NCBI RefSeq assembly: GCF_005239135.1
Contig: NZ_QKNX01000001.1
Span: 558,001 to 622,000, forward strand
Source of the DNA: Natronomonas salsuginis
Lineage (GTDB): Archaea; Halobacteriota; Halobacteria; Halobacteriales; Haloarculaceae
Direction of reading: 5' to 3'
Length of the DNA stretch: 64,000 bases
Below are positions 23,394-33,374 of this stretch, one piece after another. The first letter of the stretch is position 1. The number at the start of each line of letters is the position of its first letter. The notes beneath the pieces were generated by a model, which did no database searches, had not been told where the DNA came from, and saw nothing but the letters and a program-made list of their open reading frames with translations. The translations under genes and the position numbers were made by a program.

Positions 23394-23426
23394 TGATGTG
23401 GTGGAAATATATACTAAATCACATCA
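23394..23426 (-). promoter_or_regulatory. Palindromic operator and promoter of the TA-like pair
   Basis: tgatgtg at 23394-23400 and cacatca at 23420-23426 form a perfect 7 bp inverted repeat with a 19 base spacer, 32 bp upstream of the regulator's ATG. The spacer contains the AT-rich aatatatac, a plausible TATA box on the minus strand. A palindrome enclosing the TATA box fits repression by the encoded winged-helix protein. Confidence 0.6.
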
Positions 23427-23561
23427 AATATCCCTATATCGACCCACGATTCACGACGGGGAGGATGTCACTACATATCCACTCTCTTCGTAGTCACCGT
23501 CTGTCTCGCGTCAACTCAGCCGGATATCCTCGCCGTCCCTGCCAGCCCGTTCATCCACGTG

Positions 23562-23771
23562 CTACTCGGATTCCGTCACTGGATGAAGCCCCACGGTCAC
23601 TTCCGTTCCGCGGGGGTAATCGTCAGCGAACGAGATCTCGCCGTCGACCTGTTCGAGCACGGACGTCGCGAGGTACAGCCCTGTCCCAATCCCGGAGCGA
23701 CCCTCATAGCGCCTCTCGGAATCGTTGAGCATCTCCTTTCCGTCGTCGGGAATTCCGACGCCATCAACCAT
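23562..23771 (-). pseudogene. Histidine kinase, C-terminal ATPase fragment
   Basis: About 69 residues on the minus strand carry the end of a HATPase_c domain: VDGVGIPDDGKEML (N/G1-box region), GRSGIGTGLYLATSVLEQVD (G2 box), DGEISFADDYPRGTEVTVGL and a TAG stop at 23564-23562. Everything upstream is missing; at about 23765 the sequence changes into the tail of an IS6-type transposase read on the other strand. The kinase gene was evidently cut by the insertion. Confidence 0.7.
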
Positions 23772-24131
23772 AAACGCTACTGGCTGTACGCCGCTGTCGA
23801 TCCTGAAACAAATGAATTACTCCACGCAAAGCTTGAAGCAACCAGAACAAACGTTCTCGCTCACGCGTTCTTTGCCGAGCTCCGCGAGAAACACGACGGT
23901 TCTGATGCGGTGTTTCTCATCGACGGCTCACACTCGTTGAAAGGCGCCTGCCGTCGTCACGGCCTCGATTTCAGATACGAAAAACACGGAAATCGGAACA
24001 GCGTCGAACGTGTCTTTCGAGAGATAAAACGTCGAACGACCAGCATCTCAAACTGTTTCAGCAACACCAACGCGGAAACTGCCGACGACTGGCTCAGATC
24101 GTTCAGCTTCGCATGGAATCAGCTTATTTGA
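23763..24131 (+). pseudogene. IS6-family transposase, C-terminal fragment
   Basis: About 122 residues of a DDE transposase: RYWLYAAVDPETNELLHAKL with the first catalytic Asp region already lost, FLIDGSHSLKGACRRHGLDF with the second Asp, and NRNSVERVFREIKRRT with the catalytic Glu, ending SFAWNQLI. The N-terminal DNA-binding half is absent. The frame is open upstream but there encodes antisense kinase sequence. No inverted terminal repeat could be recognised, so this is a dead remnant. Confidence 0.78.
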
Positions 24132-26158: not shown

Positions 26159-26917
26159 GTGACAAACGCGCAGGTAACGCTCATCCAGATCGATAACTAC
26201 GGGCCGTGGACGGTCACCCCCGAACCGCGCCGGGAAGTCGATCTGCAGACCCTTCAATCGCGGCTGTACGCCGACCTCTCACAGCTGTTCGGCAACCGCG
26301 AGGGCTACGTCTTCTTCACTCGTTTCGACAACATGGTCGCCGTCACCAACGGGCTCGACGCCGACGCACATGCCCTGATACAGGAATCCGTCGGGAACCG
26401 CTATCCGGTGACGGTGAGCCTCAGTATCGCCGTCGATCCGGCCCCCGCGGCGGCGCTCGGGACCGCGACGAGTCAGCTACAGGACGCCGGAAGCGCCCAA
26501 GACGGCGAACGGACCGAGGTTCTACGAGGAGAACCGCTCCCACCCGAACGCCGGACCGACGACGACGTTCAGATCGCGCACTTCGACGTCAACGACGCGA
26601 CCGGCAAGTATACCGATCAGCTCAACGAGTTCGACTCGTTCATCAACATCGAACAGGGGTACGCCGAGCTGATGCGCTATATGCGGCGAGCGCACGACTC
26701 GCTCTCGTTTTTCGTCGGTGGTGACAACATCATCGTCGTCTGCGATGCGGTCGACGAAACCGGATATCTCGACGCGATCGAACACGTCCGCGAGGCCGTC
26801 GGCGTCGATCTGAAGGTCGGTGTCGGCACCGATCGGACCGCACAGGCAGCCGGGATGGCTGCCAAACACGCGCTCGAAACCTGTCGGGACGAGCGGACAG
26901 ACGTCGAATTCGCCTGA
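26159..26917 (+). CDS. gch3: GTP cyclohydrolase III
   Basis: This archaeal enzyme opens the imidazole ring of GTP to give 2-amino-5-formylamino-6-ribosylaminopyrimidinone phosphate (FAPy), an entry to riboflavin and F420 synthesis. The 252-residue protein has the duplicated cyclase-like fold: TLIQIDNYGPWTVTPEPRRE and FFTRFDNMVAVTNG in the first half, and AHFDVNDATG and FFVGGDNIIVVC in the second. The metal-binding GGDN motif is intact. The start is GTG at 26159. Its product feeds the pathway that CofG/CofH draw on. Confidence 0.93.
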   Translation: MTNAQVTLIQIDNYGPWTVTPEPRREVDLQTLQSRLYADLSQLFGNREGYVFFTRFDNMVAVTNGLDADAHALIQESVGNRYPVTVSLSIAVDPAPAAALGTATSQLQDAGSAQDGERTEVLRGEPLPPERRTDDDVQIAHFDVNDATGKYTDQLNEFDSFINIEQGYAELMRYMRRAHDSLSFFVGGDNIIVVCDAVDETGYLDAIEHVREAVGVDLKVGVGTDRTAQAAGMAAKHALETCRDERTDVEFA

Positions 26918-27096: not shown

Positions 27097-28485
27097 ATGG
27101 TCCGAAAGATCCAACGTCGAGACGTACTCAAGGGTGCGGGTGCTGCGGGAATCGCCACCATCGCCGGGTGTACGACCGACGACGGCAGCGGCAACGGGAA
27201 TGGAAACGGAAACGGGAACGGAAACGGCGGGAACGGAAACGGAAGTGGCGGGAACGAAAATGGCAACGGCAACGGTGGTGCCAACGCGCCAGACGCCGTG
27301 ATGGTCGTCGGGTTCCCGCAGTCCGGAATCCAACTGTTCCGCGATTTCTACTCTGATTTCGCCGACCAGGTGCCGGATCTCGATATCGTCGTCCCCGACG
27401 GACTCATCGACTCCGAACTCCCTGGTGAGGTCGACAACGACATGAACAACGTCATCGGGACCGCCCCCTCCGCGGCCGGTCCCGGTGCGGAGTTCTTCCA
27501 GTCCGAGTACGAAGCCACCTATGACTCTGAACCGGGCGTATTCACCGCGCAGGCGTACGACGCGATGGCGGTCAACGTCCTCGCGGCGACGGCTGCCGGC
27601 GAGAACGACGGCACGGCGATCCGTGATCGCGTTAGAACCGTCGCGAATCCCGACGGCGAGGAGTTCGGTCCTGAGAACCTCGTCGGCGCGGTCGAGGCCG
27701 TCGCTGCCGGCGACGACATCAATTACATCGGCGCGTCGTCGAGCGTCAACTTCGATGTCAACGGTGACATCGCTACCGCCGCCTACGACGTCATCGACTT
27801 CCAGGACGGCGAGTTGGAGACCCTCGAAACCCTCGAGTTCGGCGCGGGACTCACCGAAGAAGATCAGAACGCGACGGCCGAAGCCCCCGTCGGCGTCGAC
27901 AGCTTCGAAGCGATGGTCGGCGTCCTGATGCCCGAGACCGGCGACCTCGGTCCGCTCGGCGGACCGATCCGCGACGGTGCGCTACTCGCAGCGGAGCAGG
28001 TCAACAACGCGGACATCAACGTCACCGTCGACACCCGTGTCGAGGACACGCAGACGGATCCGCAGGCCGGGATCTCCGGGGCGGAAGCGCTCGTCAACGC
28101 CGGCTACCCCGCCGTCGTCGGGCCCGCGGCGTCGAACGTCAACCTTCAGGTGGCCGATCAGGTGTTCATCCCGAACGCCGTCGTCGGTATCTCGCCGTCC
28201 TCGACGGACCCCGACGTGACCAACCTCGACGACAACGACTTCATCTACCGGACGTGTCCGTCCGACCTCCTGCAGGGTCCGGCGATGGCCCAACTCGCAC
28301 GCGGGGACCGCGTCGGCGCGGAAAGCTCCGGCACCATGTACCTCAACGACGCCTACGGACAGGCGCTCGAGGAGCAGTACTCCGCCGCGTTCGAGGAGGA
28401 GGGCGGCGAGGTTCGAGAGCGCATCTCTTTCGAACCCGAGCAGCCGTCCTACTCGAGCCAGTGGACGAACGTGCTGGAACTGTAG
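27097..28485 (+). CDS. Branched-chain amino-acid type ABC substrate-binding lipoprotein, apparently circularly permuted
   Basis: A 462-residue Tat lipoprotein: RRDVLKGAGAAGIATIAGC with lipid-anchor Cys25, then a Gly/Asn-rich linker (about 26-64). In type I periplasmic-binding proteins the order is a first-lobe start (GVLMPETGDLGPLGGPIRDG), then SSQWTNVLEL, then PDAVMVVGFPQSGIQLFRDF to the end. Here residues 65-255 are the C-terminal half (PDAVMVVGFP to ETLEFGAG) and residues 272-462 the N-terminal half (VGVLMPETGD to SQWTNVLEL, stop). Both halves are complete (about 190 residues each) and simply swapped. It should capture amino acids or amides for the LivHMGF permease encoded opposite. The function of the permuted form is untested. 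Confidence 0.85.
   Translation: MVRKIQRRDVLKGAGAAGIATIAGCTTDDGSGNGNGNGNGNGNGGNGNGSGGNENGNGNGGANAPDAVMVVGFPQSGIQLFRDFYSDFADQVPDLDIVVPDGLIDSELPGEVDNDMNNVIGTAPSAAGPGAEFFQSEYEATYDSEPGVFTAQAYDAMAVNVLAATAAGENDGTAIRDRVRTVANPDGEEFGPENLVGAVEAVAAGDDINYIGASSSVNFDVNGDIATAAYDVIDFQDGELETLETLEFGAGLTEEDQNATAEAPVGVDSFEAMVGVLMPETGDLGPLGGPIRDGALLAAEQVNNADINVTVDTRVEDTQTDPQAGISGAEALVNAGYPAVVGPAASNVNLQVADQVFIPNAVVGISPSSTDPDVTNLDDNDFIYRTCPSDLLQGPAMAQLARGDRVGAESSGTMYLNDAYGQALEEQYSAAFEEEGGEVRERISFEPEQPSYSSQWTNVLEL
27180..27288 (+). repeat. Low-complexity Gly/Asn linker repeat
   Basis: Imperfect repeats of aacggg/aatgga-type hexamers encode the Asn-Gly linker between the lipid anchor and the binding domain. Such linkers are common in haloarchaeal lipoproteins and tend to vary in length by slippage. 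Confidence 0.7.
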
Positions 28486-28517: not shown

Positions 28518-28519
28518 CG

Positions 28520-28590
28520 CTCTGTTGAAACCCTCAGCCGCTGTTAGTTTGGCGGAGCCCTGCTGGATACAGGGCGCGTATCTTGCACGG
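28520..28590. mobile_element. Possible end remnant of an insertion sequence
   Basis: The segment from ctctgttgaaaccctcagcc to gggcgcgtatcttgcac has the look of the terminal sequence of haloarchaeal IS elements, and contains a perfect hairpin gccctg-N7-cagggc (28557-28575). No transposase or second end is present. The assignment rests on remembered similarity only and is weak. Confidence 0.25.
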
Positions 28591-28657
28591 GAGTGAACGT
28601 CGATGGGAATTGTCGAAGCGCCCACGACAGACAGATCACACGTTGAGCGAAAACTAC

Positions 28658-29137
28658 CTAGACCCACACGAGGAGCAGAAACCCGACGAGCATCGAGACG
28701 GTGAGCAGGACTTGTATCGCCGTTGACGCAAGCATCCCGATGGCTGTGACCGCCGCAGTCTGGGCCCCTCGACGGACATCTCCGTGTCGAAGATACTCTA
28801 AGGAGAACACCACCCCGACGACCCCGAGGAGCGCGCCAAGCGGACCCAGGACGAACAGGAGTCCGATCGCCGCGACAGCGGCGACAATGGTCGTTCGCAT
28901 CGATGCCCCGCCGATCTGTGCCGAGAGTGCGCTTTCGAGGAGATCGACGGCGACGGTTAAGACGCCCACAATGACGAACCCGAGAAACGCGATGGTTCCG
29001 AGGTCCCCTGTTACCATCCAGTAGTATGCAACCCCGAGTGTCGACACCGCACCTCCCGGAATCAGCGGCGCGAAGCTCGCGACGATGCCGACGAGCAACA
29101 GTATGATCGCGACGACGATCGGATCGATCGGGAGCAT
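28658..29137 (-). CDS. DUF456 family membrane protein
   Basis: A 159-residue, very hydrophobic protein with about five transmembrane helices. The DUF456 pattern is seen in LLLVGIVASFAPLIPGGAVSTLGVAYYWM and in VLGPLGALLGVVGVVFSLEYL near the C-terminus (PLGxxxG). DUF456 proteins have no established function. ATG 29137 is preferred over TTG 29149. It sits between the binding-protein gene and the end of the liv operon without obvious functional linkage. Confidence 0.85.
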   Translation of the reverse strand: MLPIDPIVVAIILLLVGIVASFAPLIPGGAVSTLGVAYYWMVTGDLGTIAFLGFVIVGVLTVAVDLLESALSAQIGGASMRTTIVAAVAAIGLLFVLGPLGALLGVVGVVFSLEYLRHGDVRRGAQTAAVTAIGMLASTAIQVLLTVSMLVGFLLLVWV

Positions 29138-29319
29138 CGACACAGACAACGATGAGGAACGACGAAACGGTGTCGGAGTGGTTCTCGCAAAAGCGACCGC
29201 CCCCCGGCAATGTCCTCATGATGATCGGCGGACGGATACGACGGCAGCGGCGCTTCTCTACCTGAGAAACAAACCATTGAATTGACGATATTATTACAAA
29301 TCAGCAGGCGATCAGGTTC

Positions 29320-30096
29320 TCAGCCGCCGAGGAAGTCCTGTCGAACGTCGTCGTCGCCCAACAGTACGTCCCCGCGGTCGGTGTAGCGGTTCTCGCCGTC
29401 GACGAGGACGTAGCCGCGATCGCAGCGTCGAAGGGCCTCCTTCGCGTTCTGTTCGACCATCAGAATTGCCGTCCCCGAGTCGTTGATCCGATCGATACGG
29501 TCGAACATGTCGGCGACGAGATCGGGTGCGAGCCCGGCCGAGGGCTCGTCGAGGAGCAGCAAGTCAGGATCGAGCATCAGTGCCCGACCCATCGCGACCA
29601 TCTGCTGTTGGCCGCCAGAAAGGGTGCCGGCCTTCTGCTGCTCACGCTCGCGCAGGATGGGGAACCGGTCGTAGATCGCCTCGATCTGATCCTCCGGAAC
29701 GCTATCGAGGATGTACGCTCCCATCTCGAGGTTCTCCCGGACACTCAGTCCAGGAAAGACGTTGTCGTTCTGCGGGACAAACCCGATCCCCTTGCTGATG
29801 ATCTGTTCGGGGGAAAGCCCGTGGATCGACTCACCGGCGAACTCGACCGTGCCGGCCATGTAGGTCGTGAGGCCGAACACCGTCTTCATCACCGTCGATT
29901 TTCCGGCACCGTTCGGGCCGACGATAGTTGCGTACTCGCCGTTCGCGACGTCGAGATCCACGTCTGAGAGAATTTGGAGGTCGCCGTATCCGGCGTCGAG
30001 GTCGCGGATCCGGAGGAGCGCGTCCTCGTCGATGGTGTGAGTCGTGCCGGCGACGATTTCGGAATCATCGGATCGTCCCGTCGATTCAGCGCTCAT
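29320..30096 (-). CDS. livF: LivF-type ABC transporter ATPase
   Basis: The second ATPase of a hydrophobic amino-acid uptake (HAAT/Liv) transporter, 258 residues. Walker A is GPNGAGKST, the signature LSGGQQQM, Walker B LLLLDEPSAGLAP, followed by MVEQNAKEALRRCDRGYVL, which is LivF-type. A 35-residue acidic N-terminal extension precedes the ABC core. ATG 30096 overlaps the livG stop (ATGA). It is the last gene of the livHMGF operon. Confidence 0.94.
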   Translation of the reverse strand: MSAESTGRSDDSEIVAGTTHTIDEDALLRIRDLDAGYGDLQILSDVDLDVANGEYATIVGPNGAGKSTVMKTVFGLTTYMAGTVEFAGESIHGLSPEQIISKGIGFVPQNDNVFPGLSVRENLEMGAYILDSVPEDQIEAIYDRFPILREREQQKAGTLSGGQQQMVAMGRALMLDPDLLLLDEPSAGLAPDLVADMFDRIDRINDSGTAILMVEQNAKEALRRCDRGYVLVDGENRYTDRGDVLLGDDDVRQDFLGG

Positions 30097-30953
30097 ATGT
30101 CCTCCCCGAGGTACGCCTCGATGACCTGCTCGTTGTTTCGGATATCCTCGGCGGTTCCCTCGGCCAACACGCTTCCTTGATGCATAACGATGATGTGCCC
30201 GCAGTTGTTCATGATGACGTCCATGTCGTGTTCGACGAGGAGGAACGTGTATCCGTCCTCGCGCAACTCGTGAATCCGTTCGAGGAGTTTCTCCTCGAGC
30301 GTCGGGTTGACACCCGCGAGCGGCTCGTCGAGCAGCACCACCTCCGGATCGGTCATGAGCGCTCGAGCCATCTCGAGGAGTTTCCGCTGCCCGCCGGAGA
30401 GGTTTTCGGCGTGTTCGGTGGCGACGTGGTCGATCTCGAAGAACTCCAACATCTCCCACGCGCGCTCTCGAAGCGCGCGCTCCTCTTCGACGACGGCCCC
30501 TCGAAGCCACGGCGTCACCGACCGAATGGCCGACTCGCCGAGTTGGTTCTTCGGTGCCAACATCACGTTCTCGAGGACGGTCATCTCGCCGAGCTCGCGG
30601 GCGATTTGGAACGTACGGACCAGCCCCTTCCGAGCGATCTGGTAGGGATCGAGTCCCGTTATCTCTTCGTCCTTGAAGTAGATGTGGCCCGCCGTCGGTT
30701 CGTGAACGCCGGTGATGCAGTTGAACGTGGTCGACTTCCCAGCCCCGTTCGGACCAATAAGCCCGGTCAGAGAGCCCTCCTCGACCTCGAAGGTCGCTCC
30801 GTCGACGGCGGTGACGCCGCCGAACTTCTTGACGAGACCGTCCACGCGGAGCGGGAGTCCGGGCGGCGTCGTCTGGGCGGCCTCCTCGGTGAGTGAGTCC
30901 TCCGTTTCGGGGAGCTCGTCCGGGGATTTCGCCTCCGGGCTCGGATCACTCAT
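30093..30953 (-). CDS. livG: LivG-type ABC transporter ATPase
   Basis: A 286-residue ATPase partner of LivF. An acidic leader of about 35 residues precedes the core. Walker A is GPNGAGKST, and the LivG-type Q-loop region is LVRTFQIARELGEMTVLENVM. The signature is LSGGQRKL, Walker B VVLLDEPLAGVNPTLEEKLL, and the H-loop is in LVEHDMDVIM. ATG 30953 overlaps the livM stop by 8 bp (a GTG at 30962 is possible). The gene is translationally coupled to both neighbours. Confidence 0.94.
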   Translation of the reverse strand: MSDPSPEAKSPDELPETEDSLTEEAAQTTPPGLPLRVDGLVKKFGGVTAVDGATFEVEEGSLTGLIGPNGAGKSTTFNCITGVHEPTAGHIYFKDEEITGLDPYQIARKGLVRTFQIARELGEMTVLENVMLAPKNQLGESAIRSVTPWLRGAVVEEERALRERAWEMLEFFEIDHVATEHAENLSGGQRKLLEMARALMTDPEVVLLDEPLAGVNPTLEEKLLERIHELREDGYTFLLVEHDMDVIMNNCGHIIVMHQGSVLAEGTAEDIRNNEQVIEAYLGEDI

Positions 30954-32256
30954 CGCCGTCACCTCCGTTGGAACGCGACCGTTCGGAGAGATCGACCGCC
31001 GCCGCCGTCTCGATTCGGTGGCCGAGGAGCCCGTCGGGCCGGCGATGCATGATGAAGATCAAGACGATGCCGAGAAAGACGAACTGCAGCGGCGCGATGT
31101 TGTCAGTCGCGAACGCCAGAAACGCCACGGGGTCGAGCGAGGCGAGGGCGTCGGCGAACGAGTTCGGCGTCGGCGCATCGATCGTGTCCCGGACGACCGA
31201 CCCGACGCGCCGCGGCCCTTCGAAGAGGACGGCCGCGAAGACGATCCCGCCGACAACGGCCCCCGTGTTCGAGCCGGAGCCGCCGATGATGACGGCGACG
31301 AAGATGTAGAACGTCAACAGCGGCATGAACTGCGGAGTCGGCGAGACGTTCCCCTGGCTGCCGAACCAGAGGATGCCGGCGAGTCCCATCAGCGCACAGC
31401 CGATCATGAACACCTTGATCTTGATCAGATCGACGTTCTTCCCGAGCGAGTCCGCGACGAGTTCGTCCTCCCGAATCGCCTTGAGAATCCGACCGAACGG
31501 CGATTTCCCGAGCCGTTCGAGAATGACGTAGAAGGCGACAACAAACGCGGCGAGGACGAAGATGTATCCCCAGCCGATGAGGATGTTGTTCGAGATACCG
31601 AGCCCGTCCTGACCGAGCGTCCCGAAGACGAGTTCTCCGAGCGCGGTCGGGGTTCCGGCCTGTCCGTCGACGAGAAACAGCTCGCGGACCGGATTCCTCG
31701 GCATTCCCATGCCGCCACCGCCCCCGGTTCCGACGTTGAACGTCTCTCGAAGGAAGGTGTCGAACGTGGCCGATTGCAGCGTCAGGCGGATGATCTCCGA
31801 GAGGCCGAGAGTCACGATCGCGAGGTAGTCCGCCCGCAGCCGAAGCGCCGGCAGAGCGGCGAAAAACCCGATGAGCGCCGCGACCGCCATGCCTGCGACG
31901 ATCCCGACCGGCAACGGGAGCCCCAGACCCGGCGGACCGAACGCCGGATCGGGTGGTCGGACGACGATCCCCATCGTGTACACGCCGACGGCCATGAACC
32001 CGGCGACGCCGATGTTGAACAGGCCCGTGTAGCCCCAGTGGAGGTTGAGCGCGAGCGCCGAGAGTGCGTACACCAACCCGAGAAATGTGAGCGTCCGCAT
32101 CAGCCCGACGACGCTGTTGAGGCCGTTCGTGAAGGTCAAAAGCGTCGCGGCGACGTAGATGAGTCCGAGCGTGAGGAGGACGACCCCAAGACTGCTCTCC
32201 TGTACAGCGTTCCACAGGGCGCGCGTCGCGCTCGTCGGTTCGTCCCGGTCGGTCAT
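30946..32256 (-). CDS. livM: LivM-type ABC transporter permease
   Basis: A 436-residue membrane permease with about ten transmembrane helices. Typical LivM stretches are ALNLHWGYTGLFNIGVAGFMAVGVY, ALRLRADYLAIVTLGLSEIIRL, the coupling segment GRILKAIREDELVADSLGKN and FVAVIIGGSGSNTGAVVGG. ATG 32256 overlaps the livH stop (ATGA). A long acidic and basic C-terminal tail follows the last helix. It forms the translocation pore with LivH. Confidence 0.93.
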   Translation of the reverse strand: MTDRDEPTSATRALWNAVQESSLGVVLLTLGLIYVAATLLTFTNGLNSVVGLMRTLTFLGLVYALSALALNLHWGYTGLFNIGVAGFMAVGVYTMGIVVRPPDPAFGPPGLGLPLPVGIVAGMAVAALIGFFAALPALRLRADYLAIVTLGLSEIIRLTLQSATFDTFLRETFNVGTGGGGGMGMPRNPVRELFLVDGQAGTPTALGELVFGTLGQDGLGISNNILIGWGYIFVLAAFVVAFYVILERLGKSPFGRILKAIREDELVADSLGKNVDLIKIKVFMIGCALMGLAGILWFGSQGNVSPTPQFMPLLTFYIFVAVIIGGSGSNTGAVVGGIVFAAVLFEGPRRVGSVVRDTIDAPTPNSFADALASLDPVAFLAFATDNIAPLQFVFLGIVLIFIMHRRPDGLLGHRIETAAAVDLSERSRSNGGDGDE

Positions 32257-33374
32257 GCCGTCGAAACACCTCCGAAGATGCCCTGCGGACGGAACAGTAA
32301 CACGAGGATCATCACCGCGAAGACGGCGGCGTCGTTGAAGTCCGAGGGGAGCCAGATCGTCGAGGTGGTGAAGACGATCCCGATAACGAGCCCGCCGGCG
32401 ATCGCGCCGTAGATCGACCCGATCCCGCCGAGGATCACCGCCGCGAAGATGAGCAAGAGGAGCAGCCACCCGAAGTCGAACTGGATCGTCCCACGCAACA
32501 TCACGTAGAGATACCCGGAGGCACCCGCGAGCCCGCCGCCGAGAATCCAGGTTGCCGTGACGACCCGTTCGGCCGGGATCCCGGTGATGAGCGCGAGGTC
32601 CTTGTTGTCCGCCATCGCCCGCATCGCGGTCCCGAGTTTCGTGTTCTGTAGCATGAAGTGCATCGCGAGCATCAACAGGACGGCTGAGACGGCGAGCGTC
32701 AACTGGTGGGCGTTGACCGACAGTCCGAGAGGGGCAAAGGCGAGGTTCGACGCCTCGACGCTCGCGGTGACCCCGCGGCTGCTGGCGCCGTAGACGAACT
32801 GGAGCAGGTATCTGACGATCAACGCGGCACCGATCGACGCGATGAGTATCGAGATGCCGCTCCGGTCTCGCATCGGCTTGTAGAACGCCCGATCAAGCGC
32901 GAGCGCGATGAGCGCGGTGGCGACGAACGCCACGAGCAAGCCGAGCAAGATCGCCAGGGGCGTGGTGAGAATGTGCGCGCCGATATCGCCCGGCGTCGCA
33001 TCGCCCGCGCCGCGAACCGTCAAGAGCGCACGAAGCGGGATCTCGCTCCCGGCGGCGACGACGAACGCGACGCCCCAGCCGGTGAACGCGCCGGTCGTGA
33101 TGAGGTCGCCGTGAGAAAAGTTCGCGAAGTTGAGAATGCTGTACGTCATCGAGAGCCCGATTCCGGCCAGTCCGATCACGAGCCCGATGACGATGCCGTT
33201 CCAGAGATTCGACCTGAGTCGCCCCGTCGAGAGCGCGCCGCCGATCGGCCCGACCTCGATTCCGGCGAGTTTCGCCACGAGATCGACGAGAAGGAGTGCG
33301 CCGAACAGCACAGCGACGACGAGCCCCGGCCGTTCCCGTATCGACCCGGTGACTGTTGATTCAGTTGTGCCCAT
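32253..33374 (-). CDS. livH: LivH-type ABC transporter permease
   Basis: A 373-residue permease with about eight to nine transmembrane helices. LivH features include SMTYSILNFANFSHGDLITTGAF near the N-terminus, GTAMRAMADNKDLALITGIPAERV as the cytoplasmic coupling loop and ILGGIGSIYGAIAGGLVIGI near the end. It heads livHMGF and starts at ATG 33374. The substrate-binding gene normally found beside livH is absent here and lies beyond livF on the other strand. The upstream region is shared with the divergent pgk gene. Confidence 0.93.
   Translation of the reverse strand: MGTTESTVTGSIRERPGLVVAVLFGALLLVDLVAKLAGIEVGPIGGALSTGRLRSNLWNGIVIGLVIGLAGIGLSMTYSILNFANFSHGDLITTGAFTGWGVAFVVAAGSEIPLRALLTVRGAGDATPGDIGAHILTTPLAILLGLLVAFVATALIALALDRAFYKPMRDRSGISILIASIGAALIVRYLLQFVYGASSRGVTASVEASNLAFAPLGLSVNAHQLTLAVSAVLLMLAMHFMLQNTKLGTAMRAMADNKDLALITGIPAERVVTATWILGGGLAGASGYLYVMLRGTIQFDFGWLLLLLIFAAVILGGIGSIYGAIAGGLVIGIVFTTSTIWLPSDFNDAAVFAVMILVLLFRPQGIFGGVSTA

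Follow-up and report, generated by a model that had tools for sequence, protein, structure and literature searches.

The gene at 27097–28485 (+) of the Natronomonas salsuginis window (the whole 64,000-nucleotide stretch of DNA analysed) encodes a Liv-type (Peripla_BP_6) solute-binding protein that has undergone natural circular permutation and is intact and under purifying selection; the homologous halves of the fold are swapped, and the orthologous locus of haloarchaea carries both half orders. The best-supported reading of the sequence comparisons is that at least three independent permutations, all at the same breakpoint, have occurred in haloarchaea. Taken as a whole, the explanation judged probable is that of a lipid-anchored Liv-type binding protein, permuted in place repeatedly and still working with the LivFGMH transporter.

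Architecture of the permuted gene and its surroundings

The features of the locus are as follows.

26159–26917 (+): GTP cyclohydrolase III gene, an upstream neighbour conserved in many loci beside canonical and permuted versions (PF05165, 295.9 bits; NCBIfam PRK02240.1)
27097–28485 (+): circularly permuted Liv-type solute-binding lipoprotein gene, topology P1 (signal – B – linker – A), with an open frame and reversed Peripla_BP_6 halves; present in many genera
27097–27171 (+): Tat signal and lipobox (MVRKIQRRDVLKGAGAAGIATIAGC, lipidated Cys25), read from the sequence
27172–27288 (+): Gly/Asn-rich spacer from lipid anchor to fold, read from the sequence
27289–27840 (+): half B, the second half of the canonical fold (Pfam, Peripla_BP_6 profile 189–312), which directly follows half A in canonical relatives
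27841–27915 (+): new linker bridging the former C- and N-termini (GLTEEDQNATAEAPVGVDSFEAM region); canonical relatives lack it, and inside the Halorubrum-type clade it is conserved and differs from the linkers of other permuted clades
27916–28482 (+): half A, the first half of the canonical fold (Pfam, Peripla_BP_6 profile 4–185), with the new C-terminus ...SYSSQWTNVLEL
27916–28026 (+): first beta-alpha unit 'a', relocated to the C-terminus in P2 relatives (by comparison with relatives)
28519–28594: degenerate repeat, an IS/MITE-like remnant outside the mechanism
29320–30096 (–): livF (ABC ATPase; PF00005), convergent with the binding-protein gene in a conserved locus
30093–30962 (–): livG (ABC ATPase with BCA_ABC_TP_C; PF00005 and PF12399)
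30946–32268 (–): livM (permease; PF02653)
32253–33374 (–): livH (permease; PF02653)

The reading frame runs from an ATG at 27097 to a stop at 28483–28485 (462 amino acids) and is open from end to end, as a first-pass annotation made from the sequence had claimed; its description of the N-terminus was likewise accurate, with a Tat motif (RR, residues 7–8), a lipobox (TIAGC, Cys25) and a Gly/Asn linker. The signal matches PF10518 (TAT_signal) weakly (19.8 bits, below the cut-off of 22.7), and the same signal (MKRNIQRRDVLKGAGAAGLAGLAGC) is carried by the canonical sister protein L167. Across the whole protein, Peripla_BP_6 scores 103.8 bits against a cut-off of 31.7, the match falling into two stretches in reversed order: the first half of the chain corresponds to profile positions 189–312 (E 2.8e-7 when tested alone), and residues 274–458 correspond to profile positions 4–185 (E 1.6e-23 with the second half alone). 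Both halves are thus complete and swapped, and the canonical order of secondary structure is absent, the second half leading. Half A is also matched by the NCBIfam LivJ model and, in phmmer searches against the PDB, by the N-terminal half of leucine-binding proteins.

The first-pass annotation had proposed a natural circular permutation of a Liv-type binding protein, naming a normal order of the profile halves as the outcome that would speak against it; separate Pfam searches of the two halves returned the reversed order, which bears the proposal out. Its junctions, placed near 27289 and 27916, correspond to the starts of the half-B core PDAVMVVGFP (27289) and the half-A core VGVLMPETGD (27916), and the succession it gave for the standard fold, SQWTNVLEL and then DPDAVMVVGFP, is directly visible in canonical relatives, which join A directly to B (in L167, ...SYSSQLGEALGDDPDVLMVVGFPQS...).

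One locus, three topologies

A single conserved locus houses canonical, once-permuted (P1) and P2 genes in haloarchaea. Among loci with sufficient flanking sequence, nearly all have convergent livF-livG-livM-livH beside the binding-protein gene; GTP cyclohydrolase III often precedes that gene, and both features hold whatever the topology. The position of the gene apart from livH, beyond livF on the opposite strand, had been noted at first pass as unusual; the position is as described, but canonical and permuted loci have this layout in common, so that it is the rule rather than an oddity. In the present genome a DUF456 membrane protein gene (28658–29149, –) sits between the binding-protein gene and livF. 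The liv operon of the window groups with that of Halorubrum, which belongs to another family, suggesting that the whole operon may have been horizontally replaced. Within the genus of the window (g1, G000–G019), P1 genes of two clades, canonical genes and P2 genes are found at the same locus.

The three topologies are rotations of one circle, namely canonical (a-A'-B), P1 (B-a-A') and P2 (A'-B-a). All P1 clades begin with (P)D.L.V(I/V)G(Y/F)P and end after the preceding helix. P2, present in four genomes (L063, L164–L166), begins after the first beta-alpha unit and retains the B-to-a linker of P1 clade I, FEG(D/E)NP.G.GPSAD..PG.., and was therefore derived from a permuted ancestor; L063 and L164–L166 do not form one group in trees of the solute-binding protein (SBP), and P2 may go back to one event or to two. 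In L158 (G042) and L159 (G187) the same locus holds two diverged permuted genes in tandem, and paired matches occur also in G169, G111, G094, G154, G164, G183 and G149; tandem permuted pairs of this kind are a natural setting for fusion and trimming.

Number of permutation events

An SBP tree was built from proteins rotated into canonical order with their blocks aligned, and a LivFGMH tree, independent of the SBP, from 1255 columns. The root was set with haloarchaeal paralogues and with canonical homologues of other archaea; with the very distant outgroups L036 and L037 it had fallen unreliably within the permuted grade, and nearer outgroups were used instead. Rooted in this way, the tree has the canonical order as the ancestral state and places the P1 proteins in four clades with 99–100% support each: I (large, including P2), II (L128, L129), III (L124–L127, L131) and IV (window/Halorubrum). 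The SBP and LivFGMH trees agree in nesting clade IV among canonical operons (G003, G142, G217, G218, G292).

In AU tests, for which the groups were named after the trees had been seen, a single permuted group (canonical sequences as one clan) was rejected by both the SBP (p=0.011) and LivFGMH (p=1.8e-6). LivFGMH also rejected I+IV (3.8e-7), I+II+III (1e-5), III+IV (1.2e-8) and II+IV (5e-132), with SBP values of 0.007 for III+IV and 0.048 for I+IV. A joint II+III was not rejected (SBP p=0.065, LivFGMH p=0.465), nor was I+III on the SBP alone (p=0.13), and the claim is therefore one of at least three events, with four probable but not firm.

A single origin would likewise predict the identical breakpoints of all P1 clades. 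The strongest competing account has the permutation arise once, long ago, with the canonical order restored several times afterwards, or with both forms persisting side by side for long and being lost differentially. This account, which the joint groupings I+III and II+III spared by the SBP tests would also fit, is nevertheless improbable: it requires about eight or nine exact reversions on the rooted tree, against four gains, in a group surrounded by canonical outgroups and paralogues, and the operon data strongly reject a single permuted group and the groupings I+IV, I+II+III, III+IV and II+IV. The linkers of clades I and IV are, moreover, unrelated (mean z 0.54), and the junction windows of clade IV are nearer to those of its canonical sisters than to those of clade I, by +29 points where A starts, +29 where it ends, +17 where B starts and +9 where it ends, which together argue against one inherited permuted gene and against transfer of the junctions by recombination.

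Such a transfer, in which an incoming permuted gene gave the junctions only and the resident canonical gene supplied the domains by gene conversion, would account for both the identical breakpoints and the operon-like sequence relationships, yet we regard it as very unlikely, since the junction windows of clade IV lack clade-I signal, the two linkers differ, and several crossovers would have to fall within short stretches where protein identity is about 50%. Shuffling of domains between paralogues was rejected, as halves A and B give the same neighbours. No tandem, partial or split intermediates were found in the loci fetched.

Under repeated permutation at one breakpoint, the reuse of a single loop is most simply explained by structural constraint or selection. 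A more specific version, that permutation in place at this loop was favoured in haloarchaea by an anchor on the other lobe and a fourth inter-lobe strand, with P2 indicating that the termini could be moved again, is offered tentatively.

Predicted structure and proposed working

A two-lobed Venus-flytrap fold is confidently predicted for both permuted topologies by AlphaFold2 with alignments of natural sequences (P1, pLDDT 90.3, pTM 0.88; P2, pLDDT 89.6, pTM 0.87). In Foldseek searches, about 190 residues of the P1 model align to the leucine-binding proteins 4n0q and 3td9 (rmsd about 2 Å, TM 0.44), and about 330 residues of the P2 model align to 3td9; as Foldseek alignment is order-dependent, the partial match of P1 and longer match of P2 are those that the two cuts predict. 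The structural comparison suggested at first pass thus yielded the expected fold, with half-chain matches to leucine-binding proteins.

Ser285, Thr309 and Asp40 (mature numbering from 27280), three candidate pocket positions, do not vary across 43 P1 rows; the same holds in 22 canonical rows for the equivalent residues Ser78, Thr102 and Asp228. These Ser, Thr and acidic positions presumably correspond to S79, T102 and E226 of E. coli LivJ, which contact the amino acid, and on this equivalence the ligand is probably of amino-acid type.

The protein would act as the lipid-anchored binding protein of a Liv-type (branched-chain/hydrophobic amino-acid type) ABC importer, a predicted partnership in which the membrane and ATPase subunits would come from the convergent livF, livG, livM and livH genes downstream. 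In the rearranged chain, the linker of roughly 25 residues connects the canonical N- and C-termini, while the new ends lie in the loop that separates helix SYSSQWTNVLEL from strand DAVMVVGFP, inside the C-terminal lobe; the Tat export signal, lipobox and spacer were retained at the new N-terminus. The folded product would hold its ligand between the two lobes and pass it to LivHM. The lipid tether would be shifted to the other lobe, and by analogy with the treponemal lipoprotein Tp0684 (PMC4990184), P1 would be tethered through its C-lobe, the new linker presumably forming a fourth inter-lobe crossing. The change took place within an operon otherwise holding a canonical gene, with a second rearrangement in one permuted lineage carrying the first beta-alpha unit to the C-terminus; each event probably began with a tandem duplication, whose copies were then fused and trimmed.

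Because the gene lies convergent with the liv operon rather than inside it, one could imagine a permuted protein that has parted from LivFGMH and been repurposed, as a sensor or some other lipoprotein; this we consider highly doubtful, given that the convergent layout is kept for canonical and permuted genes alike, that the SBP and LivFGMH trees agree, and that the candidate pocket Ser, Thr and Asp are invariant in both forms. Continued service as the binding protein of LivFGMH is the preferred reading.

Distribution and intactness

The permuted order is found end to end in independent assemblies of more than 20 Halorubrum species, Halohasta, Haloferax and Halogeometricum, and a contiguous permuted match, with the same junctions as the protein of the window, is present in at least about 135 of the 392 genomes sampled across the order, spanning nine family-level groups. 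The search for the gene in relatives that was proposed at first pass thus recovers the permuted order in many of them. Beyond the haloarchaeal order, no permuted relative occurs among the matches listed, each of which is split in canonical order. Among Halorubrum-type permuted members dN/dS is 0.14–0.31, which, with the confidently predicted full-length fold, upholds the annotation's view that the rearrangement is not decay. In one species (L139:4800–5903, G161), a Halorubrum-type permuted gene is cut about halfway through its A part and continues into a foreign tail, and this broken copy is probably an insertion or pseudogene.

Misjoined repeats can produce such swaps, but the other objection raised at first pass, an assembly error between two binding-protein genes, and the related reading as a pseudogene are refuted by the same order in more than 100 independent assemblies, the absence of a second closely related copy from the present genome, and the dN/dS values and confident fold.

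The possible IS remnant noted behind the gene exists as a repeat of roughly 75 bp (28519–28594) with three other copies at 75–78% in the same genome, possibly an IS end or MITE. Its suggested role as the origin of the permutation did not hold up: the repeat is absent from the relatives' loci and restricted to the present genome, while the permutation is old and common to many genera, so the repeat is not its cause. Elsewhere in the window, 23396–24131 (+) may encode an IS240/IS6-type transposase (DDE_Tnp_IS240, 22.6 bits, just below the cut-off of 27).

Meaning and relation to known permuted proteins

As a rule, a natural circular permutation has been inferred from structures as a single event of the distant past. 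In the cultivable, genetically tractable archaea of the present case, three versions of one gene (canonical, once-permuted and twice-permuted) share an operon position, at sequence identities (about 50–68%) sufficient for tracing each event, which allows direct tests of how permutations originate, why one loop is reused, and whether the position of the tether alters transport. A rearrangement regarded as a rare accident thereby becomes open to study as a repeated evolutionary event; in practical terms, a protein family widespread in haloarchaea is misread by annotation and structure searches that depend on the order of the chain.

Circular permutation by duplication or by fission and fusion is known from saposin/swaposin and the transhydrogenases (PMC3320104). 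The haloarchaeal case is the same kind of event; as no intermediate was found, permutation by duplication is inferred rather than observed, and the repeats at one breakpoint in orthologous operons, together with a second-step permutation, are unusual beside those examples. Relative to canonical LivJ/LivK (PDB 4n0q, 3td9, 3ipc), the permuted proteins share the Pfam family, predicted fold, operon partners and, presumably, the conserved pocket positions, and differ in half order, termini, position of the lipid tether and the added linker. In the literature searched, no permuted haloarchaeal or archaeal binding proteins were found, and a preprint on permutation-invariant searching does not mention binding proteins (PMC12667903).

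A permuted type I binding protein is in itself already known. Treponema pallidum Tp0684 (MglB-2) and its relatives in spirochaetes and Gram-positives ('Type Ic / Cluster Bc') are natural circular permutations of the type I periplasmic-binding fold; Tp0684 is a tethered lipoprotein of an ABC importer that binds sugar and closes around it, and is cut in the N-lobe, with the first three N-lobe strands moved to the C-terminus (PMC4990184). Its permutation creates a fourth inter-lobe crossover, for which tethering has been suggested as the reason, and its permuted part aligns poorly with MglB (PMC4990184). The haloarchaeal protein is likewise a natural permutation of the type I fold in a tethered lipoprotein, predicted to serve an ABC importer. 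It falls outside the Type Ic (TpMglB-2-like) group, however, belonging to the Liv/Peripla_BP_6 family rather than the MglB sugar binders and being cut in the middle of the C-lobe; both of its parts are still clearly homologous to the canonical orthologues found at the same locus, and the rearrangement is recurrent. As far as the literature searched shows, the new elements are the different family and cut, the clear orthology at one locus, the parallel events and the second-step permutation.
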